DNA of 64,000 nucleotides from Defluviicoccus sp. (GTDB lineage: Bacteria > Pseudomonadota > Alphaproteobacteria > MPNO01). Below, in pieces: positions 25,316-59,745 of the stretch. The stretch is from the NCBI GenBank assembly GCA_028821395.1, contig JAPPGP010000099.1, positions 1-64,000 on the forward strand. Reading direction: 5' to 3'. The notes below the pieces were generated by a model, which made no database searches, was not told the origin of the DNA, and worked only from the letters and a program-made list of their open reading frames with translations. The first letter of the stretch is position 1; each line of letters opens with the position of its first letter. A program made the translations under genes and the position numbers.

Positions 25316-26974
25316 ATGTCCGATGGCGCCGCGCGACGCGACAGCCCGTATGACAGCGGGCTGGAGAAGAACGCCGCCAATTTCGCCCCGCTGACGCCGC
25401 TCAGCTTCCTCAAGCGCACCGCCGCGGTCTATCCCGACCGTATTTCGGCGATCCACGGCGAGCGCCGGTTTACCTGGCGCGAGACCGAGCGCCGCTGCCG
25501 CGCGCTGGCCTCTTCGCTCGCCGGGCTCGGGGTCCGCAGGGGCGACACGGTGGCGGTCTTCGCGCCCAACGTGCCGGCCATCCTGGAGGCCCATTTCGGC
25601 GTGCCGATGACAGGCGCGGTGCTGAACGCGATCAACATCCGGCTCGACGCCGAGACCGTCGCCTTCATCCTCGCCCACGGCGAGGCGCGCGTGCTGCTGA
25701 CCGACCGCGAGTTCTCGCCGGTGATCGCGGACGCGCTCGGCCGGCTGGAGCGGCGGCCCCATGTGATCGACATCGACGATGCGGCGGCGGGCGGCGGCGG
25801 GCCGATCGGAGACGCGGAATACGAGGACTTCATCGCTGCGGGAGATCCGGAATTCGACTGGCACCCGCCCGACGACGAGTGGGACGCGATCGCGCTCAAC
25901 TACACCTCGGGCACCACCGGCAGTCCGAAGGGCGTCGTCTACCACCACCGCGGCGCCTATCTCAACGCGCTCGGCAATTTGGTCGCCCAGGCGATCCCGC
26001 CGCACCCGGTCTATCTCTGGACCCTGCCGATGTTCCACTGCAACGGCTGGTGCTTCCCGTGGACGATCACCGCGCTCGCCGGCACCCATGTCTGCCTGCG
26101 CCGGGTCGAGGCGGAACCGGTCTACCGGGCGATCGCGGAGGACGGGGTGACCCATTTCTGCGGCGCGCCGGTGGTGCTCAACATGCTGGCCAACGCGCCG
26201 GTCGAGCACAGGCGGGAGCTGCCGCGCCCGGTCGAGGCGATGACGGCGGGCGCGCCGCCGCCGGCCACCGTCATCGAGGCGATGGAGGCGGCGGGCTTCC
26301 GCATCACCCATGTCTACGGCCTGACCGAGACCTACGGGCCCGACGTGGTGTGCGCCTGGAACGGCGACTGGGATGCCCTGCCCGCGGCCGACCGGGCGGG
26401 GCTCAAGGCGCGCCAGGGCGTCGCCTACCCGGTGCAGGAGGCCGTCATGGTCGCCGATGCCGGGACACTCGAGCCGGTGCCGAAGGACGGCGCGACGATG
26501 GGCGAGGTGATGCATCGCGGCAACATCGTCATGAAGGGCTATCTCAAGAACGGCCAGGCGACGGAAGAGGCGTTCGCCGGCGGCTGGTTCCACTCGGGCG
26601 ACCTCGGGGTGTGGCACGAGGACGGCTATGTCGAGCTCAAGGACCGCTCCAAGGACATCATCATCTCGGGCGGCGAGAACATATCGAGCATCGAGGTCGA
26701 GGAGGTGCTGTACCGCCACCCCGCCGTGCTCGAGGCCGCGGTGACCGCGCGGCCCGACGACAAATGGGGCGAGACGCCATGCGCCTTCGTCACCCTGAAA
26801 GAGGGCAGGCGCGCGACCGAGGCGGAGATCGTCGCGTTCTGCCGCGACAACCTCGCGCATTTCAAGGCGCCGAAGACGGTGGTGTTCTGCGACCTGCCCA
26901 AGACGTCGACGGGGAAGGTGCAGAAATTCGTGCTGCGCGAGCGCGCCCGCGCCCGCGCCCTCGACGGCGGCTGA
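25316..26974 (+). CDS. AMP-dependent acyl-CoA synthetase
   Basis: This 552-residue ANL-superfamily ligase activates a carboxylate to its CoA thioester via an acyl-adenylate. It has the P-loop 'NYTSGTTGSPKGVVYHH', 'MFHCNGWCFPW', 'HVYGLTETYGPDV', 'WFHSGDLGVWHEDGYVELKDRSKDIIISGGENIS' (hinge) and the C-terminal 'LPKTSTGKVQKFVLR' with the catalytic Lys. The pattern fits the fatty/aryl-acyl-CoA ligase clade. GGAAGG precedes the ATG. It is 10 nt upstream of a phenylacetate-CoA-ligase-like gene. Substrate unknown. Confidence 0.92.
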   Translation: MSDGAARRDSPYDSGLEKNAANFAPLTPLSFLKRTAAVYPDRISAIHGERRFTWRETERRCRALASSLAGLGVRRGDTVAVFAPNVPAILEAHFGVPMTGAVLNAINIRLDAETVAFILAHGEARVLLTDREFSPVIADALGRLERRPHVIDIDDAAAGGGGPIGDAEYEDFIAAGDPEFDWHPPDDEWDAIALNYTSGTTGSPKGVVYHHRGAYLNALGNLVAQAIPPHPVYLWTLPMFHCNGWCFPWTITALAGTHVCLRRVEAEPVYRAIAEDGVTHFCGAPVVLNMLANAPVEHRRELPRPVEAMTAGAPPPATVIEAMEAAGFRITHVYGLTETYGPDVVCAWNGDWDALPAADRAGLKARQGVAYPVQEAVMVADAGTLEPVPKDGATMGEVMHRGNIVMKGYLKNGQATEEAFAGGWFHSGDLGVWHEDGYVELKDRSKDIIISGGENISSIEVEEVLYRHPAVLEAAVTARPDDKWGETPCAFVTLKEGRRATEAEIVAFCRDNLAHFKAPKTVVFCDLPKTSTGKVQKFVLRERARARALDGG

Positions 26975-28326: not shown

Positions 28327-29289
28327 TCAGACGAGCTCGCGCCGGTAATACTTCGCGAACTTCATCAGCGGCTCGTCGCTCATCCGGAAGAGCACCGCGT
28401 CCTCGTCGGCGCTGTGCGAGACGCTGCGCCACATCGGACCGGCGAAGGTGTCGCCGCGCTCCCAGCGGATCGGCTCGCCGTCGATCGTCGTGGTGCCGTG
28501 CCCCTGCATGACGCAGAAGATGGCGTTGGTCGTCGTGCGCATCGGCCGCGTCGTCTCGCCCGATTCGAGACGCAGCACGTCGAGCGCCATGCTCGGCATG
28601 TCGGGCGCATCGAGGCGGATGCGCGTCCCCTCGACCCCCTCGGGGTCGGGCGCGGCCGCATCGAGCGCCTTCTGCAGCCCGTCCCAGGAGAAGCGGAGCG
28701 GCGAGTCCTCGGTGACCAGCTCGACCTCCTCGAACCCGTCCGGGTGGTCCTCGACGAACATCGGCTCCAGCAGTTGCACCAGCGGCACGTCGAGCCCGTC
28801 GAACCAGTAGGCCGGCGCATCCCCGTCATGGCCATGGCCATGCCACTGCCAGCCCGGGGTGAGCACGATGTCGCCGGTCTCCATCGGCGTCTTGATCCCG
28901 TCCACCGTCGAGTAGGCGCCTTCGGCGTCGATGATGACGCGGAGCGCGTGCGGCGCGTGGCGGTGCGAGCGCGCCTTCTCGCCCGGCAGGATCATCTGGT
29001 AGGCCGAGACCAGGGTGCGGGTCGTCGCGATCCCGTCCGGGTCGGCCGGGTTGCGCATCACCAGGTTGCGCCGTTCCGCGAGCTCGGTGTTGATCAGCCG
29101 TCCGGCGGCATCGAGCGCCGGCTTGGCCACCGCGTAGCGCCAATGCGCCGGCCGGAAGGCGGTATCCGGCTCGGCCCGCAGGATCGGCTCGTCGCGGTCG
29201 ATCCACCCCGGGGTCATCTCCACCCCGCCGAGCGCGGCGTAAAGCTCCTCCAGCGATCCCACCTCGGCGATGCGTCGTTCGGCGGTCAT
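28327..29289 (-). CDS. Gentisate 1,2-dioxygenase-like bicupin
   Basis: This 320-residue bicupin is of the gentisate/1-hydroxy-2-naphthoate dioxygenase family. The first cupin has 'GEKARSHRHAPHALRVIID' (iron-binding His-His) and 'GDIVLTPGWQWHGHGHDGD'. The second has 'SGETTRPMRTTTNAIFCVMQG' and 'WERGDTFAGP', whose metal residues are not all kept. That is the normal state of these enzymes, where only the N-terminal cupin is active. It would cleave a hydroxylated aromatic ring next to the carboxylate. It is convergent with the two ligase genes. Confidence 0.85.
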   Translation of the reverse strand: MTAERRIAEVGSLEELYAALGGVEMTPGWIDRDEPILRAEPDTAFRPAHWRYAVAKPALDAAGRLINTELAERRNLVMRNPADPDGIATTRTLVSAYQMILPGEKARSHRHAPHALRVIIDAEGAYSTVDGIKTPMETGDIVLTPGWQWHGHGHDGDAPAYWFDGLDVPLVQLLEPMFVEDHPDGFEEVELVTEDSPLRFSWDGLQKALDAAAPDPEGVEGTRIRLDAPDMPSMALDVLRLESGETTRPMRTTTNAIFCVMQGHGTTTIDGEPIRWERGDTFAGPMWRSVSHSADEDAVLFRMSDEPLMKFAKYYRRELV

Positions 29290-47342: not shown

Positions 47343-48389
47343 CTACGGCTCGGGCACGAAGAACTGCATGCCGAACCAGCGCCAGCGACCGTCGCCGGCC
47401 GGCAGGGTACAGTTGATGCGCGCGCGGCCGGGCGGGAAGGCTTCGGCGAGCTTGACGATGACCCGGCCCTGTCCCCGCCGTTCCAGCGCCGTGCGGCCTT
47501 GGCCGGACGCGTAGCAGGCCATGGAGCCGAGTCCGCCGCGCGCGTCCCCGGCGACGGTGAACGCGAATTCCGGCGGGTTGTTGCGCCGGGTGAGCAGCGG
47601 ATCGGCAGGCGCGATGTCCCTCGCCTCGATCGGGAGCGCATTGGCGGCGAGAACGAACCGGTCGAGGCTGCCATAGGTCTCGTTCATCGCGAAACGCGGC
47701 AGGTACAGGTGGTCGGCGTCGGGATAGAGCACCCCCGAGTGCTGCCCGAACGCCGCGACGAAGCCGGCCTTGTCGACCTCGCTTCGCGCCGCGCTGCTGA
47801 TCTCGCCGAAGGGGTAGGCGAACAGCACGGGCCGCTTCCCGAGCTCCTGCTCGAAGCGTCTGTTGGACCTCGCGAGCTCGTCGGCGTTCTTCCCCGGCGG
47901 CAGCAGGGGCATATGCGGGTGCGATGCGGTCTGGCTGCCGATGGTCACCCCGGCCGCCGCCAGCTCGCGGATCTGGTCCCAGCCCATGTAGTTCCTGAAG
48001 CCGCGGTCGATCGGGTCGGTCGCGACGAACAAGGTGAAGGGAAGCCCGGCTTGGCGCAGCCGGGGCCAGCCCTCGTCGTAGAGCGACCGAAAGGCGTCGT
48101 CGACGCTGAGCCCGACAGTGCGGTCGGGCAGCTGCCGCTTCTCGCGGATCGCCGCGACGATCTGCGGCAGCGGCAGGACGGTGAAACGCCCGCTCTTGAG
48201 CGTCTGGATATGCGCGTCCAGCTGGGCGATGGTGGTGTTGGTCGACGGGAGGGTGTTCTCGCCGAAGCGGTGATACATGAACACCACCGCCGAGCTGGCG
48301 GCAAACGCTGGCGCCGTGACGAGCAACGCCGCCGCGGCCGCGACCGCGCCGAGGACGGAGCGCCGCAACCGGCGGAAGCCAATCCTCAT
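47343..48389 (-). CDS. Polysaccharide deacetylase family protein (secreted)
   Basis: This 348-residue protein has a signal peptide ending 'APAFAAS'. The NodB-type carbohydrate esterase 4 domain shows 'AVVFMYHRFGEN', 'VGLSVDDAFRSLYDEGWPRL' (motif 1, with DD), 'IGSQTASHPHMPLL' (motif 2, metal His) and 'LFAYPFGEIS' (motif 3). The C-terminal 100 residues form a further beta-rich segment without a clear family. It is expected to deacetylate a polysaccharide or peptidoglycan in the periplasm. Confidence 0.88.
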   Translation of the reverse strand: MRIGFRRLRRSVLGAVAAAAALLVTAPAFAASSAVVFMYHRFGENTLPSTNTTIAQLDAHIQTLKSGRFTVLPLPQIVAAIREKRQLPDRTVGLSVDDAFRSLYDEGWPRLRQAGLPFTLFVATDPIDRGFRNYMGWDQIRELAAAGVTIGSQTASHPHMPLLPPGKNADELARSNRRFEQELGKRPVLFAYPFGEISSAARSEVDKAGFVAAFGQHSGVLYPDADHLYLPRFAMNETYGSLDRFVLAANALPIEARDIAPADPLLTRRNNPPEFAFTVAGDARGGLGSMACYASGQGRTALERRGQGRVIVKLAEAFPPGRARINCTLPAGDGRWRWFGMQFFVPEP

Positions 48390-48564
48390 GACCTGTTACC
48401 CGATGAATGGGTGCGTCGAGCGCACGCCATCCGACATTGTCGGCCGGCGCCCCGAGGAGTCAATCGAAAGCGCCCGCCGGCGCGGTTTGCCGTTTGTCCT
48501 TGCCCGGCGCGGCGATCCGAATAGATTGCTTCCATCCGGAGGCCTCCGGGAGAGGGAGTCCAGC

Positions 48565-48999
48565 TTGACGGAGACGGCGCATGCGGACCCGCCGCTGATC
48601 GCGGGCGAGGCGGTGAGCTTCGACGGCGACGGCCGGCCGACCCTGATCGGCTCGGAATGCGCCGACTGCCAGGCCCGGGCGTTCCCGCCGGTCGCGCTCT
48701 GCCCGGAATGCATGGGCGGCGACATCCGGAAGCTGGCGCTCGGGCGCAGGGGCCGGCTCTACAGCTACTCCACCGTCCATGTGGCGCCGCGCGGCTGGAC
48801 GGTTCCCTATATCGCCGGCTATGTCGACCTGCCCGAAGGGGTGCGCGTGTTCACCCATGTGGTGGAGGCGGAGGACGCCGAGCTCGCAATGGAGATGGAG
48901 CTCGAGCTGACCACCGCCGCGCTGGGCAGCGACGGCGACGGGACGGCATTCTCCAGCTACGCCTTCCGCCCCCGCAGGTTGGAAAGAGCCGATGCGTGA
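48565..48999 (+). CDS. OB-fold/zinc-ribbon DUF35 protein, thiolase partner
   Basis: This 144-residue protein has a rubredoxin-like zinc ribbon (C-x-x-C in 'SECADCQARAFPP' and 'LCPECMGG') followed by an OB fold ('GRRGRLYSYSTVHVAPRGWTVPYIAGYVDL'). DUF35 proteins form complexes with SCP2-type thiolases or aldolases, and the next gene, overlapping by 8 nt, is exactly such a thiolase. A TTG start is chosen because GGGAG lies 6 nt upstream. Confidence 0.87.
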   Translation: MTETAHADPPLIAGEAVSFDGDGRPTLIGSECADCQARAFPPVALCPECMGGDIRKLALGRRGRLYSYSTVHVAPRGWTVPYIAGYVDLPEGVRVFTHVVEAEDAELAMEMELELTTAALGSDGDGTAFSSYAFRPRRLERADA

Positions 49000-50131
49000 C
49001 GTGTCCGTGATCGGCGCCGGCATGGTCCGGTTCGCCAAGCAGCCGGACAAGACGTTGGCCGAGATCGCCTGGCCCGCGGTCAAGCAGGCGATCGACGACT
49101 CCGGCGTCGCGAAACGGGATATCGAGGCCGCCTGGTGCGGCACCGCGCTCGGCGGGATGATGTCGGGGCAGCGCATCCTCAAGGCGATCGGCCTCACGGG
49201 GCTCCCCATCGTGAATGTCGAGAACGCCTGCTCGTCGTCGTCGAGCGCGTTCCGCGAGGCCTGGATCGCCGTGGCGGCCGGGCTCTACGACGTCGCGCTC
49301 GTCATCGGGGTGGAGAAGCTCACCAAGTTCGGCGGCGGTACCCTGCCGCTGGAGACCGAGGATTTCGAGGTCGCCCACGGCATGGTGATGCCGGCGCTCT
49401 ACGGCATGCGGGCGAAGCGCTACATGCACGATTACGGGCTGACGCGCGAGCAGCTCGCCCGCGTCGCAGTGAAGGCGCACGACCACGGCGCGCTCAACGA
49501 GGACGCCCAGTACCGCAACCGGATCACCGTCGACGAGGTGATGGCGGCGAGACCCATCGCCGACCCCTTTACGTTGCTGCATTGCTGCCCGTCGGGCGAC
49601 GGGGCGGCGGCGCTGGTGATCGCCGCCGACACGGTCGCCGCGCGCTACAGCGCGAACCCCGTCCGGGTGCGCGCCTCCGAGCTCGCGTCGGGGAAGTACA
49701 TGACCGGCTTCCGCGACATGACCACGCCGGAGATCACCGTGCGCGGCGCCGCGGAAGCCTACGAGACGGCCGGAATCGGCCCGGAAGACATCGACGTTGC
49801 CGAGGTGCACGACGCCTTCACCATCGCCGAGCTGCTGTACTACGAGGCGCTCGGGTTCTGCGCGCGCGGCGACGCGGCGGGGCTGCTGGAGGACGGCGAG
49901 ACCTCGCTCGGCGGGCGGATACCGGTAAACCCCTCCGGCGGGCTGCTGTCGAAGGGCCACCCCATAGGCGCGACGGGCGCGGCGCAGATGGTCGAGATCG
50001 TCCGCCAGCTTCGCGGCGCGTGCGGCACCCGCCAGGTCGAGGGGGCGAAGGTCGGGCTCACCCATTGCACGGGCGGCGGCATCTCGGGCTTCGACCACGG
50101 CGCCTGCTCGATCCACGTTTTCTCGAACTAG
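48992..50131 (+). CDS. SCP2-type thiolase / acetyl-CoA acetyltransferase
   Basis: This 379-residue thiolase-fold protein has nucleophile Cys80 in 'VNVENACSSSSSAFREA', 'VAEVHDAFTIAELLYYEALG' (His) and the C-terminal 'NPSGGLLSKGHPIGATGAAQMVEIVRQLRG' and 'GLTHCTGGG'. With the DUF35 partner it would cleave a beta-ketoacyl-CoA or perform a retro-aldol step. It opens the catabolic cluster running to 55782. Confidence 0.92.
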   Translation: MRDVSVIGAGMVRFAKQPDKTLAEIAWPAVKQAIDDSGVAKRDIEAAWCGTALGGMMSGQRILKAIGLTGLPIVNVENACSSSSSAFREAWIAVAAGLYDVALVIGVEKLTKFGGGTLPLETEDFEVAHGMVMPALYGMRAKRYMHDYGLTREQLARVAVKAHDHGALNEDAQYRNRITVDEVMAARPIADPFTLLHCCPSGDGAAALVIAADTVAARYSANPVRVRASELASGKYMTGFRDMTTPEITVRGAAEAYETAGIGPEDIDVAEVHDAFTIAELLYYEALGFCARGDAAGLLEDGETSLGGRIPVNPSGGLLSKGHPIGATGAAQMVEIVRQLRGACGTRQVEGAKVGLTHCTGGGISGFDHGACSIHVFSN

Positions 50132-50145
50132 CGGCGAGGGAAGGG

Positions 50146-51018
50146 ATGAAACCTCCGCCATTCACCTATCACGACCCGCGAACGATCCCGGAAGTGCTGG
50201 ATCTGCTGGCGGAGAAGGACAACGCGCGGCTGCTCTCGGGCGGGCAGTCGCTGATGCCGATGCTCAACATGCGCTACGTCCTGCCCGACGACGTGATCGA
50301 CCTCAACCGGGTCGACGGGCTGACCGGGATCGAGGCGGCCAACGGCTCGCTCGGCATCCGCGGCATGACGCGCCAGCGCGACATCGAGTTCTCCGATGCG
50401 GTCTCGGCGCGCTGCCCGATCATGACCGAGGCGATCCTCCAGGTCGGCCACCGCCAGACCCGCAATCGCGGGACGCTCGGCGGCAGCCTCGCCCATCTGG
50501 ACCCCTCGGCCGAGCTCCCGGCGGTGGCGATGGCGCTCGACGCGACGATCCATGTCGAGAGCAAGCGCGGCAGGCGCGACATCGCGATGGCCGATTTCCC
50601 GGCCGGCTACATGACGCCGGCAATCGAGCTCGACGAGATGGTGACGGCCGCGACCTTCCCGCTGTGGGACGAGGGTCACGGCTACGCCTTCATCGAGTTC
50701 GCCCGCCGCCACGGCGATTTCGCCATCGTCTCGGCGGCCGCGCTGCTGACCGTGGACGGCGCCGGCAAGGTCGACCGGGTCTCGATCACGGTGAGCGGCG
50801 TCGGCCCTTCGCCGGTGCGCTGCACCGAGGCCGAGGCGATGATCATGGGGCAGACGCCCGAGCTCGAGCTGTTCCGCGAGGCGGCGGAGACCGCGCGCGC
50901 CTACGAGGCGCTGGAGGACGTGCACGCGCCGTCTTCCTATCGCCAGCATCTGGCGGCCGTGCTCTCGCGGCGCGCGCTCGAGAAGGCGCAGACGCGTCTG
51001 GGAGGTTCCAATGGCTGA
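50146..51018 (+). CDS. Molybdenum hydroxylase FAD-binding subunit (CoxM family)
   Basis: This 290-residue protein has the FAD motifs of CoxM/HcrB-type subunits ('ARLLSGGQSLMPMLNMRYV' and 'RQTRNRGTLGGSLAHLDPSAELPAV'). No insertion for an extra 4Fe-4S cluster (as in 4-hydroxybenzoyl-CoA reductase) is evident. It passes electrons from the Fe-S subunit to an acceptor. The next gene begins 8 nt before its end. Confidence 0.93.
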   Translation: MKPPPFTYHDPRTIPEVLDLLAEKDNARLLSGGQSLMPMLNMRYVLPDDVIDLNRVDGLTGIEAANGSLGIRGMTRQRDIEFSDAVSARCPIMTEAILQVGHRQTRNRGTLGGSLAHLDPSAELPAVAMALDATIHVESKRGRRDIAMADFPAGYMTPAIELDEMVTAATFPLWDEGHGYAFIEFARRHGDFAIVSAAALLTVDGAGKVDRVSITVSGVGPSPVRCTEAEAMIMGQTPELELFREAAETARAYEALEDVHAPSSYRQHLAAVLSRRALEKAQTRLGGSNG

Positions 51019-51502
51019 CCGGCGCCGGATCAGCGTCACCATCAACGGCGACACCTACGAGCGCGAGGTCGAGACCAGGCTTCTGCTGTCCGACTTCATC
51101 CGCCACGAGTGCGAGCTCACCGGCACCCATGTCGGCTGCGAGCACGGGGTGTGTGGCGCATGCACCATCCTGCTGGACGGGCTGACCGCCAGAAGCTGCC
51201 TGATGCTCGCCGTCCAGGCGGACGGCCACGAGCTGCTGACCATCGAGGGCATCGCGCCCAACGAGGAGGAGCTGCACCCGCTGCAACAGGCTTTCATGGA
51301 CAATCACGGCCTGCAATGCGGCTACTGCACGCCGGGCATGCTGACCACGCTGCTCGAATTCCTGCGCGACAATCCGGACCCGACGGAGCAGGAGGTGAGG
51401 ATCGCCATCTCCGGCAATCTCTGCCGCTGCACCGGATACCAGGGGATTGTCGACGCCGCGCTCGATGCGGCGGGGCGCCTGAGGGCGGAGGCCGGGGCCT
51501 AA
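51011..51502 (+). CDS. Molybdenum hydroxylase 2Fe-2S subunit (CoxS family)
   Basis: This 163-residue protein has two 2Fe-2S clusters. The plant-ferredoxin type has Cys43/48/51/63 in 'THVGCEHGVCGACTILLDG', and the helical type has Cys pairs in 'LQCGYCTPGML' and 'NLCRCTGYQGI'. It links the molybdenum site to the FAD subunit. GGAGG inside the upstream gene's end supports the ATG. Confidence 0.95.
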   Translation: MADRRRISVTINGDTYEREVETRLLLSDFIRHECELTGTHVGCEHGVCGACTILLDGLTARSCLMLAVQADGHELLTIEGIAPNEEELHPLQQAFMDNHGLQCGYCTPGMLTTLLEFLRDNPDPTEQEVRIAISGNLCRCTGYQGIVDAALDAAGRLRAEAGA

Positions 51503-51506
51503 CGTC

Positions 51507-53846
51507 ATGGGTGCCAAGGCGATGGGCGCCCGGGTCAAACGCATGGAGGACCCGGCGCTCCTGACCGGCCGCGCGACCTTCACCGACGACATCCACCTGC
51601 CGGGCATGCTGGAGGCGGCCTTCGTCCGCTCGACCCAGGCGCATGCGCGCATCCGCGGGATCGACAAGGCGGCGGCCGAGGCGATGCCGGGCGTCTTCAG
51701 GGTGGTGACGGCGAGCGACCTGCCGCCTGGGCTCCGCGAGGTCCGGGTGCCGTTCCAGGTTCCCAACCCGGCGATCACCCAGCCCTTCCAGCAACGCCTG
51801 CTGGAAGACGCGGAGGTGTGCTTCGTGGGCGAGGCGATCGCCATGGTGCTCGCCGAGACCCGCTACCAGGCGGAGGACGCCGCCGCCGCGGTCGAAATCG
51901 ACTACGAAATTCTGCCCGCCGCGTCCGACTGCCGGGACGCGCTGGGCGAGGGCGCCGGTCTCTGCCATGCCGACAGCGGAAACAACCTCTGCGCCGAGTT
52001 CAAGCTGGGCTACGGCGACGCGGCCGGCGCCTTTGCCAATGCCGAGCACGTCTTCGAGGCCTCGCTGTGGAGCCACCGGGGCGCCGGACTCGCGGTCGAG
52101 AACCGGGCGGTGGTCGCCGAGCCCGACTCCTTGCGCGACGTCGTAACCCTGTGGTCGGCGACCCAGTCGCCCTTCCTGGTCAAGCAGAATGTCGTCGACA
52201 TGCTGGACTGGCCGGCCGACCGGCTGCGCGTGATCGCGCCCGAGGTGGGCGGCGGGTTCGGGCCCAAGACGGTCTACTATGTCGAGGAGGCGCTGATCCC
52301 GCTCTGCGCGATGACGTTCGACCGGCCGATCAAATGGGTCGAGGACCGGCGCGAGAACTTCGTCGCCACCAACCAGGAGCGCGACCAGTACTGGGAGATG
52401 GCGCTCGCCTGCGACGGGGACGGGAAGATCCTCGCGGTGCGCGGCACGATGATCCACGACACCGGCGCCTACATGCCGTGGGGGATCATCAGCCCCTATA
52501 TTTCCGCGACCACGGTGCCCGGCCCCTATGTCGTGCCGGCCTACGAGCTGACCACCCGCGTCGCGCTGACCAACAAGGTCGCGGTGACCCCGGTGCGCGG
52601 CGCCGGGCGGCCGCAGGCGGTGTTCGCGATGGAGCGCCTGCTCGACCGCGCGGCCGACGGGCTCGGCATCGACCGGGCGGAGATCCGCCGCCGCAACTTC
52701 ATCCCGACGGACGCGATGCCGTACTCCTTCGGGCTGATCTTCCGCGACGGCAAGCCGATGACCTATGACAGCGGCGACTACCCGCGCTGCCAGGAAGAGG
52801 CGCTGGCGCTTGCCGATTACGACGGCTTCCAGCACCGAAGACAGAAGGCCGAGGCCGAAGGCCGCCATGTCGGGATCGGCATCGCCAACTTCGTCGAGGG
52901 CACCGGGCTCGGGCCGTTCGAAGGCGCGACGGTGCGGGTGCACGCCAACGGCAAGGTGACGGTCTATACCGGCGGCGGCGATTCCGGCCAGGGGCACTGG
53001 ACGACGCTCGCCCAGCTCTGTGCCGAGCCGCTCGGCGTCGATCCGGCGGACATCGCCGTCGAGGTCGGCGATACCGCCAAGATCGCCAACGGCATCGGCA
53101 CCTTCGCGAGCCGGATCGCTGTGAATGCCGGCAACTCCGTCCATCTCGCCGCGACCTCGGTGCGCGAGAAGGCGATAAGGGTCGCCTCGCATCTGCTGGA
53201 GGCGGCCGAGGAAGACCTCGACATCGAGGACGGACGGATCTTCGTCAAGGGCGTGCCCGAGGTCTCGACCACCCTGCGCGACGTCGCCCGGGCGGTGCGC
53301 GGCATGCCGGGCTTCTCGCTGCCCGGCGGGGTCGAGCCCGGGCTCGAGTCGACCGAGTATTTCTCCCCGCCCCAGGCCGCCTATTGCAACGGCACCGCGG
53401 TCGTCGAGGTCGAGGTCGATCCCGATACCGGCTATGTCGAGATCCTGAACTACGCGATGGCGCACGATTCGGGGAACCTGATCAACCCCTTCATCGTCGA
53501 CGGCCAGGTGCACGGCGCCTGCGCGCACGGCATCGGCAACACCCTGCTGGAGTGGATGGGCTATGACGACGACGCCCAGCCGGTGACGACGAATTTCGCC
53601 GACTACCTGCTGCCCGGCGCGCCCGACGTGCCCAGGATCGACGTGGTCCATGTCGAGTCGCCCACCCCCAACAACCCGCTCGGCGTCAAGGGGGCGGGGG
53701 AGGGGGGGACGATCCCCGCGCTCGCCGCCATCGTCGCCGCGGTCGAGGACGCGCTCGGGCCGTTCGGCGTGGCGCTCGACGACGTGCCGATCATGCCGGG
53801 CCGGCTGGCCGCCCTGGTCGCCGATGCGAGGACGCGCGCCGGGTGA
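51507..53846 (+). CDS. Molybdenum hydroxylase large subunit (CoxL/XdhB family)
   Basis: This 779-residue molybdopterin-binding subunit has 'GARVKRMEDPALLTGRATFTDDI' at the N-terminus, 'VGGGFGPKTVYYVEEALIPL', 'PVRGAGRPQAVFAMERLLDRAAD' and the catalytic-base region 'LGVKGAGEGGTIPALAAIVAAV'. The active-site loop of true CO dehydrogenase (AYRCSFR) is absent, so it hydroxylates an aromatic or heteroaromatic ring carbon, or oxidises an aldehyde, using water. It forms a complete M-S-L operon. Confidence 0.92.
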   Translation: MGAKAMGARVKRMEDPALLTGRATFTDDIHLPGMLEAAFVRSTQAHARIRGIDKAAAEAMPGVFRVVTASDLPPGLREVRVPFQVPNPAITQPFQQRLLEDAEVCFVGEAIAMVLAETRYQAEDAAAAVEIDYEILPAASDCRDALGEGAGLCHADSGNNLCAEFKLGYGDAAGAFANAEHVFEASLWSHRGAGLAVENRAVVAEPDSLRDVVTLWSATQSPFLVKQNVVDMLDWPADRLRVIAPEVGGGFGPKTVYYVEEALIPLCAMTFDRPIKWVEDRRENFVATNQERDQYWEMALACDGDGKILAVRGTMIHDTGAYMPWGIISPYISATTVPGPYVVPAYELTTRVALTNKVAVTPVRGAGRPQAVFAMERLLDRAADGLGIDRAEIRRRNFIPTDAMPYSFGLIFRDGKPMTYDSGDYPRCQEEALALADYDGFQHRRQKAEAEGRHVGIGIANFVEGTGLGPFEGATVRVHANGKVTVYTGGGDSGQGHWTTLAQLCAEPLGVDPADIAVEVGDTAKIANGIGTFASRIAVNAGNSVHLAATSVREKAIRVASHLLEAAEEDLDIEDGRIFVKGVPEVSTTLRDVARAVRGMPGFSLPGGVEPGLESTEYFSPPQAAYCNGTAVVEVEVDPDTGYVEILNYAMAHDSGNLINPFIVDGQVHGACAHGIGNTLLEWMGYDDDAQPVTTNFADYLLPGAPDVPRIDVVHVESPTPNNPLGVKGAGEGGTIPALAAIVAAVEDALGPFGVALDDVPIMPGRLAALVADARTRAG

Positions 53847-55063
53847 GCGGGGCACGCCCTCTCGCCGGCATCCGGGTCCTCGACCTGACGCAGTTCCTCG
53901 CCGGCCCCTTCGCGACCCAGATTCTCGGCGATCTGGGCGCCGAGGTGATCAAGCTCGAATCGCCCTCCGGCGACTGGTCGCGCAGCCTGCCGCCCCATTT
54001 CGTCGGCCCCGACAGCGCCTACTATCTCAGCGTCAACCGCAACAAGAAGAGCGTGGTCGCCGACATGAAGTCGGCCGAGGGGCTGGCGCTGGTCAAGCGG
54101 CTGGCCGGCGCCTCCGATATCGTGATGGAGAATTTCCGCCCGGGCGTGCTCGCCCGGCTGGGGCTGGTCTACGAAGAGCTCGCGGCCGACCACGCGGGGC
54201 TGATCTGGTGCTCGATCAGCGGCTTCGGCCAGGACGGCCCCGACCGCGACCGCCCGGCCTATGACATGATCGTCCAGGCGCTGTCGGGCGGGATGAGCAT
54301 GACCGGCGAGCCCGGCGAGCCCGCGGTTCGGGCGGGGATTCCGATCGGCGATCTCTGCGCCGGCATGTACGGCACCATCGGCGTGCTCGCCGCGCTGGAG
54401 GAGAGGCGGCGCACCGGCAAAGGCAGGCTGGTCGACGTGGCGATGCTTGACTGCCAGGTGGCGATGCTGTGCTACCAGGCGGCCTATTTCCTGCACTCCG
54501 GCGCCGAGCCCGGCCGCCAGGGCCGCGGCCACGCTTCCATCCCGACCTACCGCTCCTTCGATGCCGGCAACGACACCGAGCTGGTGATCACCGCCAACAC
54601 CGAGCGCATGTGGCGGGCGCTCTGCGGCGTGCTCGGTCTGCAAGAGCTGGTCGACGATCCGCGCTTCGCGACCAATGACGACCGCTACGCCAACCGGTTC
54701 GAGCTGTGGCCGCTGCTCGAGGCGGCGTTCCGCGAGAAGGACGCCGATGACTGGGTGCCGCTGCTGCTGGAGGCCGGCATACCGGTCGGCCGGGTCAACA
54801 CGCTGGGGGCGGCGCTGTCGAATCCGCAGATCGGGCACCGCGACATGGTGCTCGATCTCGCCGCGCGCGACGGGCGCCGGGTGCGGGTCGCCGGCAACCC
54901 GATCAAGTTCGCCGACGACCGGCCGCCAAACGCCGCCTTCCCGCCGCTGCTCGGCGAGGATACCCGCGCGGTGCTCGCCGGGGTGCTCGGAATGGGCGGC
55001 GCGGAGATCGAGGCGGCGCTCGCGGCGGGCATCGTCAGCGAACCGGAGGAGGGACCGACATGA
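53843..55063 (+). CDS. CaiB/BaiF CoA-transferase family protein
   Basis: This 406-residue class III CoA transferase has 'AGIRVLDLTQFLAGPFATQILGDLGAEVIKLE', 'NRNKKSVVADMKSAEGLALVKRLAGASDIVMENFRPG' and the catalytic Asp in 'AGIPIGDLCAGMYGTIGVLAAL'. The GTG start overlaps the CoxL stop by 4 nt. It would move CoA from a donor such as succinyl-CoA to the pathway acid. Confidence 0.93.
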   Translation: MSGARPLAGIRVLDLTQFLAGPFATQILGDLGAEVIKLESPSGDWSRSLPPHFVGPDSAYYLSVNRNKKSVVADMKSAEGLALVKRLAGASDIVMENFRPGVLARLGLVYEELAADHAGLIWCSISGFGQDGPDRDRPAYDMIVQALSGGMSMTGEPGEPAVRAGIPIGDLCAGMYGTIGVLAALEERRRTGKGRLVDVAMLDCQVAMLCYQAAYFLHSGAEPGRQGRGHASIPTYRSFDAGNDTELVITANTERMWRALCGVLGLQELVDDPRFATNDDRYANRFELWPLLEAAFREKDADDWVPLLLEAGIPVGRVNTLGAALSNPQIGHRDMVLDLAARDGRRVRVAGNPIKFADDRPPNAAFPPLLGEDTRAVLAGVLGMGGAEIEAALAAGIVSEPEEGPT

Positions 55064-55782
55064 CCGGCGAGACCATCACCCTGCGACGGGACGGCGAGAT
55101 CGCCCGCGTGCGGATCGACCGGCCGGACGCCGGCAACACGATGTCCGCCGGAATGATCGCGGAGCTCACCCGGCTCGTGGTCGAGGCCGGATCGGATCCC
55201 GCGCTGAAGGCCGTCGTGCTGATTGGGGCGGGCGAGGATTTCTGCCTCGGGCGCGAGCCCGGCGCCGGCGGGGCGAGCCGCACCGCGCTGGAGATGCGCG
55301 AGTCGCTGACCGGGCCCATCCTCGGCCTCTACGCCGCGGTGCGCGGCGCCGAGATCCCGGTCGTCGCCTCGGTGCAGGGTCGGGCCGCCGGGTTCGGCTG
55401 CGCGACCGCAGCGGTGTGCGATCTCACCATCGCCGCCGACGATGCCAGATTCAGCCTGCCCGAGATGACGCACGACCTGCCGCCGACGCTCGCGATGTGC
55501 GCCCATATCGACCGGACCATGCCGAAGGCGATCGCCTGGCTGGTCTACTCGACCGAGAGCGTCGATGCGGCGACCGCGCGGACGCTCGGCTTCGTCAGCC
55601 ACGTCGTCCCGGCCGCGTCGCTCCGGGAGGAAACCGAAGCCCTGCTGGCGACGCTTGTGGCGAGGCGGCGCGACGCGCTGATCACCTGCAAGCGCTTCCT
55701 CGCCAATGCGCGGCTGATGGAGACCGACAAGGCCGCCGATTACGCGGGCAACGTGCTGTCGGTGATCCTGTCGTCGCGCTGA
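55060..55782 (+). CDS. Enoyl-CoA hydratase/isomerase family protein
   Basis: This 240-residue crotonase-fold protein has 'VRIDRPDAGNTMSAGMIAELTRLVVEA', an oxyanion-hole region 'DFCLGREPGAGG' and 'VVASVQGRAAGFGCATAAVCDLTIAADDARFSLPEM'. The usual catalytic Glu pair is not clear. The ATGA start overlaps the CoA-transferase stop. Its last 43 nt overlap the convergent Rieske gene. Confidence 0.9.
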   Translation: MTGETITLRRDGEIARVRIDRPDAGNTMSAGMIAELTRLVVEAGSDPALKAVVLIGAGEDFCLGREPGAGGASRTALEMRESLTGPILGLYAAVRGAEIPVVASVQGRAAGFGCATAAVCDLTIAADDARFSLPEMTHDLPPTLAMCAHIDRTMPKAIAWLVYSTESVDAATARTLGFVSHVVPAASLREETEALLATLVARRRDALITCKRFLANARLMETDKAADYAGNVLSVILSSR

Positions 55783-56906
55783 GGGTCATCGAGCACCCGG
55801 TCGAGGATCCAGTTGTCGACCGCGTGAACCCCGGCCTCGCGGTGGCTGAACCGGCCTGGCCGCGCATGCGGCGAGGCGAGGCCCCGCTGCTGCATCTCGG
55901 TCGCGCGGTTGTCCTCGGGGTGGGATGCGTCGGTCCGCGCGATGTAATTCCCCACGATCGCGGCGAAATCGGCCCGCTTCGTCACCGTCTCCGGGAAGCA
56001 TAGCCCGGTGAGCACCTGGGTGCGGTCGGCCGCGAGAGGGCGGAACGACATCCACCACATGCAGTCCACCGTGAAGACCAGGAACGAGGCCGGGTAGAGG
56101 CCGACGAAAAAGGTGCCCTCGGCCGCGCGGCCTTCGAGCGTCGGGATCGGCGGCAAGGTCTTCGCCGCACCGAGCCGGGCGGCGATCGATCCCTGGTGCC
56201 CGAACCAGGAGCCGGACCAGTGCCCGGACGCCGCGAGCTGTTCCGGTAGCTGCTCGGCCAGCGTGCCGCGGTGGACGACGGCGACGTGGTAGCTCTCGCG
56301 CTGGTTCTCCATGCAGAGCTTCCAGTTGCAGGCCACGTCGTAGGCCCTCCGGTGGACGCAGATCATGCCCTCCGCCTGGTGCGAGTGGAGTTCTTCGGGG
56401 AGATTGCCGAGATGATCGTCGAGCCCCGCGCCGTCATCCGCGAAGTTGAGAAAGACGAACCCGGCCCATTCCGCCAGGCGTAGCGGGATCAACCCGAACT
56501 CCGCGGAATCGAAGCTCTTTGCCCGTTCCATCCCGGCCGCCGCGACAAGCCTGCCGTCGAGCGCGTAGCTCCAGCCGTGATAGGGGCAGGAGATCGCCTT
56601 GGCATTGCCGCTCCCCGAGACCAGCCGGGAGCCGCGATGCCGGCAGGTATTGGCGAAGGCGCGCAGCGCCCCGTCCGCGCCGCGCAGCACGATCGCCGGC
56701 ATTCCCGCGAGGTCGACCGTGCAATAGTCCCCCGGCTCTGAAATGTCCCCGGCGCGGCAGGCGAGGTTCCAGTGCATCCGGAAAATCCGCTCCCGCTCGC
56801 GCGCGAAGAACGCCGGCTCCGTATAGGCATCGGGCGGCAGCGTCTCGGCGTCGAGCAGGGGAAGACGCACTTTCGCGTAGCGCGCCGGGTCGAACAGCCC
56901 GGTCAA
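55740..56906 (-). CDS. Rieske oxygenase alpha subunit
   Basis: This 388-residue protein has an N-terminal Rieske 2Fe-2S site (Cys88-x-His90, Cys107-x-x-His110) in 'CRHRGSRL' and 'SCPYHGW'. The catalytic domain has mononuclear iron ligands in 'NWKLCMENQRESYHVAVVH', where the usual bridging Asp position is Glu. The start is most simply the TTG at 56906 that overlaps the upstream stop (TTGA); there is no clear ribosome site, so translation is probably coupled. It ends a three-gene operon with a diiron protein and a reductase. Confidence 0.88.
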   Translation of the reverse strand: MTGLFDPARYAKVRLPLLDAETLPPDAYTEPAFFARERERIFRMHWNLACRAGDISEPGDYCTVDLAGMPAIVLRGADGALRAFANTCRHRGSRLVSGSGNAKAISCPYHGWSYALDGRLVAAAGMERAKSFDSAEFGLIPLRLAEWAGFVFLNFADDGAGLDDHLGNLPEELHSHQAEGMICVHRRAYDVACNWKLCMENQRESYHVAVVHRGTLAEQLPEQLAASGHWSGSWFGHQGSIAARLGAAKTLPPIPTLEGRAAEGTFFVGLYPASFLVFTVDCMWWMSFRPLAADRTQVLTGLCFPETVTKRADFAAIVGNYIARTDASHPEDNRATEMQQRGLASPHARPGRFSHREAGVHAVDNWILDRVLDDPQRDDRITDSTLPA

Positions 56907-57637
56907 CGGATCGCGGCGAAGGCCGGGTCGTCGGCGTCGAAGCCGGGCAGCACGAGTCCGAGCTTCCCTTCGACGACGGCGCGGGCGCGGCCGACATAGT
57001 CCTCGCGCATCGCCTCGTTGGTCCGCTTCTTGATGCCCCATCTGCGGTAGAGCGCGTTGTTGCGCGAGCCCGAGCGCCCGAAGAAGGGCGGGAAGAGGGG
57101 GAAGATCCGCTCGACATGGCTCTGGATCAGCGCCTTCCCCTCGTCGGTCTGGCAGATGTCGGTGCAGAAATTCTCGCCGAACTCGGCATGGAAGTGCTCT
57201 TCCGGCATCGTCATCCGGGCAAGCCTTCGTACCGGATGGAAGGAACACTGTACAAGGTCCTCGACCTGAGGGATTTCCGCGAGATCGCCGAGCATCTTGA
57301 TGACGCAGAACTCCTCCCAGGTTTGCAGGTCGAAGCTCATCACCGAGAGCGGGCTCTTCTCGGTCGTCTCGGGCAGCATGAGCGCCTCGGGGATGCCCAT
57401 CTCGCGGCCGAGCTCGAAGAATCGGTAATGGTGGCCGTACTCCTCCATTACGATCCGGCAGGTCAGCCACTTGGCGTAGGGCGTCGGCGCGAGCGCGATC
57501 GCCGGTTCGTCATAGACCCTGGAGCCATGGAGCTCGTTGATCGCGTGGCTGACGACGATCTTGCGGCAGCACTCCCGATATTCCTCGGGCGCGCTGCGAA
57601 AGGCTTCCACGCTCTCGATCTGGGGAAAATCGTTCAT
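56903..57637 (-). CDS. PaaA/BoxB-like ferritin-fold diiron oxygenase
   Basis: This 244-residue helical protein is of the phenylacetate-catabolism oxygenase family. Diiron ligands fit E-x-x-H repeats: 'VMEEYGHHYRFFE' (Glu66/His69) and 'MPEEHFHAEFG' (Glu147/His150), with Glu35 in 'NELHG' as a further candidate. Members epoxidise aryl-CoA thioesters (PaaA, BoxB). Length is short compared with PaaA (about 310) and nearer to PaaC/other branches. It overlaps genes on both sides by 4 nt. Confidence 0.83.
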   Translation of the reverse strand: MNDFPQIESVEAFRSAPEEYRECCRKIVVSHAINELHGSRVYDEPAIALAPTPYAKWLTCRIVMEEYGHHYRFFELGREMGIPEALMLPETTEKSPLSVMSFDLQTWEEFCVIKMLGDLAEIPQVEDLVQCSFHPVRRLARMTMPEEHFHAEFGENFCTDICQTDEGKALIQSHVERIFPLFPPFFGRSGSRNNALYRRWGIKKRTNEAMREDYVGRARAVVEGKLGLVLPGFDADDPAFAAIR

Positions 57638-58671
57638 GCCGCCCCCCGACCCGGCCTCTCGGCCTCAGTATAGAACGCATCGGCATGGCAGTCCCGGCGG
57701 CCGAGGCCGAAGCTCAGCAGGCGCTCGGTGCAGGTCTCGACCATCGCCGGCGGGCCGGCGAGATAGGCCTTGAACCCGTCGAGATCGTCGAAATCCGCCG
57801 CCAGCGCGTCGGCAAGCCAGCCGGTGCGGCGTCCGGTCGGCCCGTCCGGCTCCGACAGGACGGTGACCACGCGCAGATTGGGGTGCCGTGCCGCGAGCGC
57901 CTGGAAATGGGACTCCAGATAGACGTCGCGCTCCGTCCGGGCGCCGAAATAGAGGAACATCTCCTGCCGGGCGCCGCCGGCGAGCGCGCTGTCGGCGATC
58001 GACTTGATCGGGGCGAGGCCGGACCCGCCGGCGACCAGCAGTATCGGCCCGCGGTGGCGCTTTCGGTAATGCGCGGTGCCCATCGGACCCGAGACCGCGA
58101 CCGGATCGCCGGTCCTCAGCGTGTCGAGGACATGGCGGGTGACTTGCCCGCCGGCCACCAGGCGGACGTGGAATTCGAGCCGCCCCGCGCCGGGTTGCGA
58201 GGCCATGGAGAAATCCCGCGGCGGCAGCCCCTCGAAGGCGAGCGCGGCGTATTGTCCGGCGGTGAAGTCGAACGGCCCGCCGCTCTCGATGTCAAGCGCG
58301 AGAAGCCGGATGTCGTGCGTCGCCCGTTCGATCGCCGCGACCCGGCAGGCGAGCCGGCGGCTCGCGTGCACCGCCTCGTCGTCTGCCGAGACGGGCTCGA
58401 CGGCGCAGTCCGACCAGGGCACCGCGCGGCAGGCGAGGATCAGCCCGCGGCCGCGCTCTTCGTCGTCCAGCGCGTATGGCGAATAGGGCGACATCTCGAC
58501 CTCGCCCGCGACCAGATGCGACTTGCAGCCGCCGCAATTGCCCGACCGGCAGCCATGCGGGTAGTCGATGCCCGCCTCCAGCGCGGTCTGGAGGATGGTG
58601 CGACCGCCCGGCACCTCGAGCCCCGCCCAGGATGCCCCGCCGGGCTTGTTCAGACTGACGCGATAGGTCAT
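57634..58671 (-). CDS. Ferredoxin-NAD(P)H reductase of an oxygenase system
   Basis: This 345-residue electron-transfer protein has an N-terminal plant-type 2Fe-2S domain (Cys41, 46, 49, 81 in 'HGCRSGNCGGCK' and 'LACRAV'). A FAD domain ('PRDFSMASQP', the RxYS equivalent) and an NAD domain ('ILLVAGGSGLAPIKSIADSAL', 'YLAGPPAMVETCTERLL') follow, the order of BenC/XylZ rather than PaaE. GGAGG ends 1 nt before the ATG, unusually tight. It starts the operon and probably feeds both oxygenases. Confidence 0.92.
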   Translation of the reverse strand: MTYRVSLNKPGGASWAGLEVPGGRTILQTALEAGIDYPHGCRSGNCGGCKSHLVAGEVEMSPYSPYALDDEERGRGLILACRAVPWSDCAVEPVSADDEAVHASRRLACRVAAIERATHDIRLLALDIESGGPFDFTAGQYAALAFEGLPPRDFSMASQPGAGRLEFHVRLVAGGQVTRHVLDTLRTGDPVAVSGPMGTAHYRKRHRGPILLVAGGSGLAPIKSIADSALAGGARQEMFLYFGARTERDVYLESHFQALAARHPNLRVVTVLSEPDGPTGRRTGWLADALAADFDDLDGFKAYLAGPPAMVETCTERLLSFGLGRRDCHADAFYTEAERPGRGAA

Positions 58672-58746: not shown

Positions 58747-59745
58747 ATGGACGGAACCCAATTTTCGCTCGCCACCTATTCCGGCGGACCGGCAGGCCCG
58801 TTCGCCGCGATCGTGCTCGGCGAGACCGCGTTCTCCGTCGCCGGCGTCTACCCCGCCTATCGCGACAGCGCGCGCGGGCGGGCCGGACCGCTGACCGCGA
58901 CCGGCGGCATCCGGGACATGCTGGAGGGCTGGGACCACAACTTCCCGGTGCTGCAGGAAATCGTCGCCTTCATCGAGGAGGAAGGGGAGGAACGCTTCGC
59001 TTCCGTCTCGGCGGCCGTCGACGGGCTTCGCGCGCTGCCGCCGGTCCTGCGTCCCGGCAAGATCCTGAACGCGGCGCAGAATTTTCAGGAACATGTCGAC
59101 GAGATGATTCGCGCCGGCAACACGCCGGAGGGCGGGCCGCGCTGGACCGGCGACCGGTCGACGACGATCCCCTATCTGTTTCTCAAGGCGCCCGGCGTGC
59201 TGGCCGGCGCGCATGACGACATCGCCATCCCGCGCGGCATGGAGAAGATCGACTGGGAGGCCGAGATCGCCTGCGCGATCTGGAAGCGGGGCAGGCGAAT
59301 CGGCGCCGACGTCGCGCTCGATCATGTCGCCGGGTGGATGACCACCAACGACGTCTCCTGCCGCGACCTCAACATGCGCCCCGACCGCCCGGCGCTGAAA
59401 TCGGACTGGTTCGGCGGCAAGAGCCACAACGACTTCGCGCCGATGGGGCCGGTGCTGGTGCCCAAGGCGTTCGTCGCCGACCACATGAACCTGTTCCTGC
59501 GCCTTGCCGTCAACGGCGAGATCAAGCAGGACGGCAACACCTCGCAATTCATCTACACGCCGGAGGAGCAGATCGAATTCGCCTCCAACATCGCCGAGGT
59601 CGAGGTCGGCGACATCTTCGTCTGCGGCACCTGCGGCGGCGTCGGCATGGGGACCGGCACCTTCCTGCAGGTCGGCGACGTGATGGAGACCGAGGTCGAG
59701 GGTCTCGGCAAGATGACCAACCGCCTGGTCGCGGATACGGACTGA
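58747..59745 (+). CDS. Fumarylacetoacetate hydrolase family protein
   Basis: This 332-residue FAH-fold enzyme has 'KILNAAQNFQEHVDEM' (His, metal site start), 'YLFLKAPGVLAG', 'KIDWEAEIACAIWK' (Glu metal ligands), 'DVSCRDLNMRP' and 'FVCGTCGGVGMGTGTFLQVGDVMETEVEGLG'. The family hydrolyses or decarboxylates acyl-pyruvate-type ring-cleavage products. GGGAG precedes the ATG by 6 nt. Divergent from the oxygenase operon with a 75-bp gap. Confidence 0.92.
   Translation: MDGTQFSLATYSGGPAGPFAAIVLGETAFSVAGVYPAYRDSARGRAGPLTATGGIRDMLEGWDHNFPVLQEIVAFIEEEGEERFASVSAAVDGLRALPPVLRPGKILNAAQNFQEHVDEMIRAGNTPEGGPRWTGDRSTTIPYLFLKAPGVLAGAHDDIAIPRGMEKIDWEAEIACAIWKRGRRIGADVALDHVAGWMTTNDVSCRDLNMRPDRPALKSDWFGGKSHNDFAPMGPVLVPKAFVADHMNLFLRLAVNGEIKQDGNTSQFIYTPEEQIEFASNIAEVEVGDIFVCGTCGGVGMGTGTFLQVGDVMETEVEGLGKMTNRLVADTD

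Follow-up and report, generated by a model that had tools for sequence, protein, structure and literature searches.

A BenC-type reductase, a PaaA-family diiron oxygenase and an alpha-only Rieske oxygenase form a conserved gene unit in Defluviicoccus

Rieske and diiron oxygenases are usually studied as separate systems with redox partners of their own. In Ralstonia U2, the oxygenases encoded by the nag genes reportedly share one redox supply. Common redox partners are also described for the Rieske oxygenases of Sphingobium yanoikuyae B1 (PMC1847435). The gene unit described here resembles both systems in that several oxygenases are proposed to depend on one redox supply, but the oxygenases of S. 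yanoikuyae B1 and Ralstonia U2 are all Rieske enzymes, whereas this unit combines a diiron and a Rieske oxygenase. It is located in a stretch of 64,000 nt (hereafter the window) from contig JAPPGP010000099.1 of Defluviicoccus sp. (genome G000) and encodes a BenC-type reductase (RED), a PaaA-family solo diiron oxygenase (DII) and an alpha-only Rieske oxygenase (RIE). No description of a diiron-Rieske-reductase unit was found in the open-access literature searched. We regard it as evenly balanced whether this unit is a genus-specific two-oxygenase variant of a widespread operon for CoA-dependent conversion of aromatic acids (an acyl-CoA hydroxylase operon).

All three genes lie on the minus strand, in the order RED (345 aa, 57634-58671), DII (244 aa, 56903-57637) and RIE (55740-56906), with overlaps of 4 nt at both junctions (ATGA between RED and DII, TTGA between DII and RIE); the start codon of RIE is therefore TTG. 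RED contains the Pfam domains Fer2 (residues 18-85, an N-terminal plant-type [2Fe-2S] domain), FAD_binding_6 (109-202) and NAD_binding_1 (212-314). This Fer2-FAD-NAD order is that of BenC, which is also the best NCBIfam model for RED (172.4 bits, below the cut-off of 430), and outside the genus, too, the gene is kept adjacent to that of the diiron protein. DII matches PaaA_PaaC (PF05138, 4e-19; 69.2 bits, cut-off 28.5), and RIE possesses Rieske and Ring_hydroxyl_A domains; for both proteins the assignment is supported by the metal ligands and by structure models. The three genes, their overlaps and the identities of their products, as given in a preliminary description made from the sequence alone, are thus borne out by the coordinates, the junctions and the Pfam matches. 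Its statement that the Rieske alpha subunit has no beta partner also holds, as no beta subunit was detected with Pfam among the 10 window proteins scanned, and a hidden one nearby is ruled out for these proteins. The RIE gene and a hydratase gene that converges on it share 43 bp at their 3' ends (55740-55782). The RIE protein is 10 aa longer in genomes G000 and G386 than in the other three genomes of the genus.

The RED-DII-RIE triplet is present in all five Defluviicoccus genomes examined (G000 and G385-G388). The TTGA junction is kept in all five and the ATGA junction in four, the exception being G385, where RED ends 8 nt ahead of DII. Pairwise dN/dS values (ratios of nonsynonymous to synonymous substitution rates) are 0.11-0.22 for RED, 0.05-0.14 for DII and 0.13-0.20 for RIE, so that each of the three genes is under purifying selection, with DII evolving most slowly and RIE faster. 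The coupling of DII and RIE through TTGA has been retained despite a synonymous divergence (dS) of up to 0.94 in RIE. Because the gene order is shared by five genomes in which all three genes have a dN/dS of about 0.05-0.22, the grouping goes beyond chance. Phylogenies of the individual proteins, a check proposed in the preliminary description, place the RIE copies of the genus in one clade (Shimodaira-Hasegawa-like approximate likelihood ratio test, SH-aLRT, 100) and its DII copies in another (SH-aLRT 99).

For comparison, we assembled 67 loci that match DII strongly, with near-identical ones merged; 62 of them are outside the genus. Many of these loci have only ~1.5 kb of sequence per flank. 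A RIE homologue near DII was found in none of the 62 outside loci within the flanks examined, and the absence of Rieske genes applies to that span. A short-chain dehydrogenase (SDR) gene immediately precedes DII in 60 of the 62 (exceptions, L034 and L040). Of the 59 loci whose sequence reaches far enough, 53 have RED upstream of DII; it was not observed in L016, L019, L034, L040, L044 and L159. RED is therefore the diiron enzyme's own, old partner. The next gene downstream is a gentisate 1,2-dioxygenase homologue in 32 of 56 loci. In L160, for example, the order is AMP-ligase, MarR, RED, SDR, DII and cupin, and the cupin scores 562.8 bits with the curated model of gentisate 1,2-dioxygenase (cut-off 442.1); in L190 the run goes on with FAA-hydrolase, thioesterase and glutathione-transferase-like genes, the last identified by visual inspection of its sequence. 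The corresponding stretches (L160:5802-11935, L190:6268-13322, and others) contain a widespread operon of RED, SDR and a solo PaaA-like diiron enzyme, which often also holds genes for gentisate 1,2-dioxygenase, CoA ligase, thioesterase and FAA-hydrolase. A protein of 187 aa without a match in Pfam or NCBIfam (L023:11805-12368) recurs downstream of the diiron or the dioxygenase gene.

The Defluviicoccus triplet shares RED, DII and a neighbouring CoA ligase with this operon of other Pseudomonadota. It differs from it in that the operon has the SDR gene between RED and DII, a ring-cleavage or FAA-hydrolase gene downstream, and no Rieske gene. All five Defluviicoccus genomes lack an SDR gene between RED and DII and a gentisate dioxygenase gene next door; each has a homologue of the latter with 52-53% identity on another contig. 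Three of the five carry, divergent from RED, a gene homologous to the relatives' CoA ligase; its best counterpart in G000 and G386 reaches just 36-37% identity. The closest relatives of the genus, a clade of L008, L009, L011, L012, L013, L018 and L021, have no adjacent gentisate dioxygenase either, so this gene was probably lost from the locus before RIE arrived. As judged from gene order and phylogeny, the triplet is not the ancestral arrangement, RIE being a later addition of single origin: the comparison shows RED and DII to be an old two-component pair, behind which RIE was added once, the intervening dehydrogenase gene having gone. What seems to be new is that, within one genus, a single reductase gene is followed by oxygenases of two classes.

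The older operon fits a putative route that would start with conversion of an aromatic acid to its CoA ester and hydroxylation of this ester by DII, after which the thioesterase would release the product for cleavage as gentisate. We found no description of such a diiron gentisate route in the open-access literature searched, and the comparison thus points to a widespread operon, undescribed there, whose solo PaaA-like diiron enzyme apparently feeds a CoA-dependent gentisate route. The DII family was found in 23 of 385 genomes of an even class-wide draw and in 3 of 398 genomes of a phylum-wide draw, our own genome included in both. Ten further genomes with places listed for both genes have their DII and RIE homologues on different contigs (G067, G079, G087, G122, G178, G184, G200, G231, G292 and G370); the class-wide Rieske search scored a few candidates per genome at most, and its tally is a lower bound. 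Relatives on plasmids (181 records) all have <60% identity and are mostly annotated as PaaA among the 20 matches listed.

DII was aligned with its homologues from 45 of 46 loci (L025, very similar to L024, was omitted and L026 was trimmed before its stop). Both E-x-x-H motifs, pointed out in the preliminary description, are present and invariant in all 46 sequences, as are all predicted ligands (E35, E66, H69, D118, E147 and H150). The residues K203 and N207, situated in a stretch shared with PaaA that we take to contact CoA, are invariant as well. In the alignment, the DII residues match all six metal ligands listed for PaaA, i.e. E42, E72, H75, D126, E155 and H158 (PMC4498308). The acid equivalent to PaaA E49 is D43, whereas the lysine bridge of PaaA (K68) is absent, the position being occupied by Ile62 (across the 46 sequences, 40 V, 5 I and 1 X) next to the invariant R61. 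The AlphaFold model of DII (pLDDT 93.5) has PaaA as its best match in the PDB (Z 28.0, rmsd 2.1 over 240), followed by PaaC (Z 23) and BoxB (Z ~21.5-21.7). DII stays below the curated PaaA equivalog cut-off (74.9 vs 280 bits), and neither PaaB nor PaaC partners were found among the 10 window proteins scanned. DII is a PaaA-family protein and not PaaA itself. With BoxB (fold Z ~21.5) it has in common that a solo diiron acyl-CoA oxygenase works with a separate reductase. BoxA, the reductase of BoxB, carries two [4Fe-4S] clusters according to the same source (PMC4498308), whereas RED is of the plant-type [2Fe-2S]/FAD kind (Fer2, FAD_binding_6, NAD_binding_1). Truncation of DII was considered and rejected, since all five copies of the genus have 244 aa and the homologues align over nearly their full length.

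For RIE, the alignment comprises 38 rows: the window protein, four relatives from the genus and 33 of 35 homologue stretches (the partial L090 and L092 were left out; stretches with a stop, with <280 aligned residues or duplicating another had been dropped, which removed the L131 copy). The Rieske ligands (C88, H90, C107 and H110) and the iron site (H207, H212 and D332) are invariant in all 38. The bridging position, Glu204, is occupied by Glu in 32 of the 38 rows and by Asp in the other 6. In CntA, this glutamate (E205) is required for electron transfer between subunits, as stated in PMC7948474, and a novelty of Glu for Asp was accordingly rejected. The short diiron protein and the Glu in place of the bridging Asp, both counted as oddities in the preliminary description, are real, but each is usual for its family. 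The RIE model (pLDDT 93.2) is closest to the stachydrine demethylase Stc2 (Z 40.1), CntA (Z 39.8) and 3n0q (Z 39.5), with matches to these proteins spanning Z 38.7-40.1, whereas alpha-beta oxygenases reach at most 35.9, ~4 Z units lower. RIE thus shares its alpha-only make-up, the bridging Glu and the closest fold with CntA and Stc2 (Group V), and differs from them in reductase type and operon setting. The Y203, C206 and C209 of CntA (for the Cys206/Cys209 pair, see PMC10952381) are replaced by Q202, S205 and V208. By its model, RIE has a predicted Group V fold but lacks the residues associated with quaternary amines. It does not reach the equivalog cut-off of GbcA, the glycine betaine monooxygenase (163 vs 670 bits), and its nearest homologues outside the genus are ~50% identical. 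One homologue (L131:3082-10650) stands amid genes for Oxidored_FMN, MttB, 2-hydroxyacid dehydrogenase and HpaB family proteins, which suggests a possible role in amine or betaine catabolism for part of the RIE subfamily.

How would the three proteins work together? NADH would reduce RED, first at the FAD and then at the [2Fe-2S] cluster, and RED would in turn reduce DII, which would oxygenate the aromatic ring of an acid carried as its CoA thioester. The CoA-transferase encoded next to the triplet could provide this thioester, as could the divergent AMP-ligase of three of the five genomes. The CoA-related neighbours and the kinship with PaaA favour a putative acyl-CoA substrate; for the N-heterocyclic substrates considered in the preliminary description, neighbours and homologues offer no support beyond a molybdenum hydroxylase of unspecified substrate, and a literature search on homarine brought nothing useful. 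With less certainty, RIE may draw on the same RED and oxidise a substrate or intermediate of the same pathway by hydroxylation or dealkylation, and one reductase may in this way supply two oxygenase classes. The products would be handled by the hydratase and the FAA-hydrolase. The special case in which a single FNR-type reductase drives DII and RIE in turn on the same CoA-linked aromatic compound, as a relay of two oxygenase classes that arose in one genus, is a tentative proposal that we put somewhat short of even chances. Coupling of both enzymes to one reductase would mean that a reductase can be recruited across oxygenase classes, and the three genes make a small, expressible test case.

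The two-oxygenase system fed by one reductase, as first proposed, is partly supported: the two oxygenase classes and the single reductase do form a conserved co-oriented unit, with intact ligands and under purifying selection, but RED belongs with the diiron enzyme rather than standing neutrally between the two oxygenases, and RIE joined once. That RED is shared between DII and RIE is plausible, if unproven. The tight coupling in five genomes and the known cases of Rieske oxygenases with a common redox supply speak for it. The genome of Defluviicoccus sp. contains 30 Ring_hydroxyl_A matches (two of which, on contig C166, may be fragments of a single gene) vs 3 FAD_binding_6 matches, the reductase count covering the FAD_binding_6 kind alone, so most Rieske enzymes there lack a reductase of this kind of their own. 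A second BenC-like reductase of this genome is encoded on contig C227. Several points weigh against a common supply in a joint pathway. Alpha-only two-component Rieske systems are grouped as type I-alpha with an FNR-C reductase in PMC2358900, which in our reading means a C-terminal [2Fe-2S] domain, unlike the N-terminal one of RED. A BenC-type reductase beside RIE homologues was found in none of the 46 loci tested (33 narrow ones and 13 of 20 wide ones), so RIE might use another supply. RED exhibits no extra change on the stem of the genus (0.25 of a tree length of 12.2 vs 0.18 of 6.6 for DII), and faster evolution of RED upon the joining of RIE, a candidate signal, was not seen there. The electron transfer from RED to RIE is a step that we infer, and the loss of the dehydrogenase together with the lack of an adjacent gentisate dioxygenase leaves the product route of the genus open.

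Some of these points would also suit a RIE that is a mere passenger, co-transcribed with RED and DII but supplied with electrons by a different reductase or ferredoxin and acting on a substrate of its own, so that the operon would reflect co-expression only. The RIE homologues elsewhere, standing in varied settings (e.g. the L131 run) with no BenC-type reductase alongside, and the unusual type of RED for an alpha-only Rieske enzyme speak for it; however, the TTGA coupling has been kept in all five genomes despite the synonymous divergence, and FAD_binding_6 reductases are few in the genome. We consider this passenger model less likely than not. The closeness of the RIE model to Stc2 and CntA and the operon that a RIE homologue shares with MttB and an Oxidored_FMN protein could also mean that RIE is a true Group V N-demethylase or C-N-cleaving enzyme, which would ready an N-methylated aromatic compound or a betaine for the CoA route. 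The replacement of the three CntA residues and the lack of betaine or amine genes among the scanned neighbours make this improbable. Finally, the locus without dehydrogenase gene and adjoining gentisate dioxygenase in all five genomes, and the missing CoA ligase in G000 and G386, would be expected if RIE had taken over as the ring-modifying enzyme and was mainly served by RED, with DII catalysing a side reaction or being on its way out. As DII is the slowest-evolving of the three proteins, with all ligands kept, and RIE evolves faster, such a replacement appears very improbable.

The genes surrounding the triplet are all on the plus strand. Divergent from RED is a gene for an FAA-hydrolase family protein (58747-59745, PF01557), present in all three other genus contigs that reach that far. 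The gene convergent with RIE encodes an enoyl-CoA hydratase/isomerase family protein (55060-55782, PF00378) and is preceded by that of a family III CoA-transferase (53843-55063, PF02515), both kept in all five genomes of the genus. They are preceded by genes for the large subunit (51507-53846, MoCoBD_1/MoCoBD_2) and the [2Fe-2S] subunit (51011-51502, Fer2/Fer2_2) of a molybdenum hydroxylase, conserved in the genus, its FAD subunit (50128-51000, FAD_binding_5 and CO_deh_flav_C in the scan of the stretch) and, according to the Pfam scan, a thiolase-like protein (48992-50131) and a ChsH2-type OB-fold partner protein (48277-48999). This neighbour set (48277-55782), from the OB-fold protein and the thiolase through the three-subunit molybdenum hydroxylase to the CoA-transferase and the hydratase, is conserved. 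Elsewhere in the window, a gentisate-dioxygenase-like cupin gene (28345-29244, minus strand; ~33-40% identity to the L160 enzyme) is accompanied by an AMP-ligase-like gene (25412-26950). The genome as a whole is rich in catabolic genes, with 13 matches to gentisate-dioxygenase-like cupins (some in two pieces) and 10 AMP-ligase matches at E <= 1e-60.

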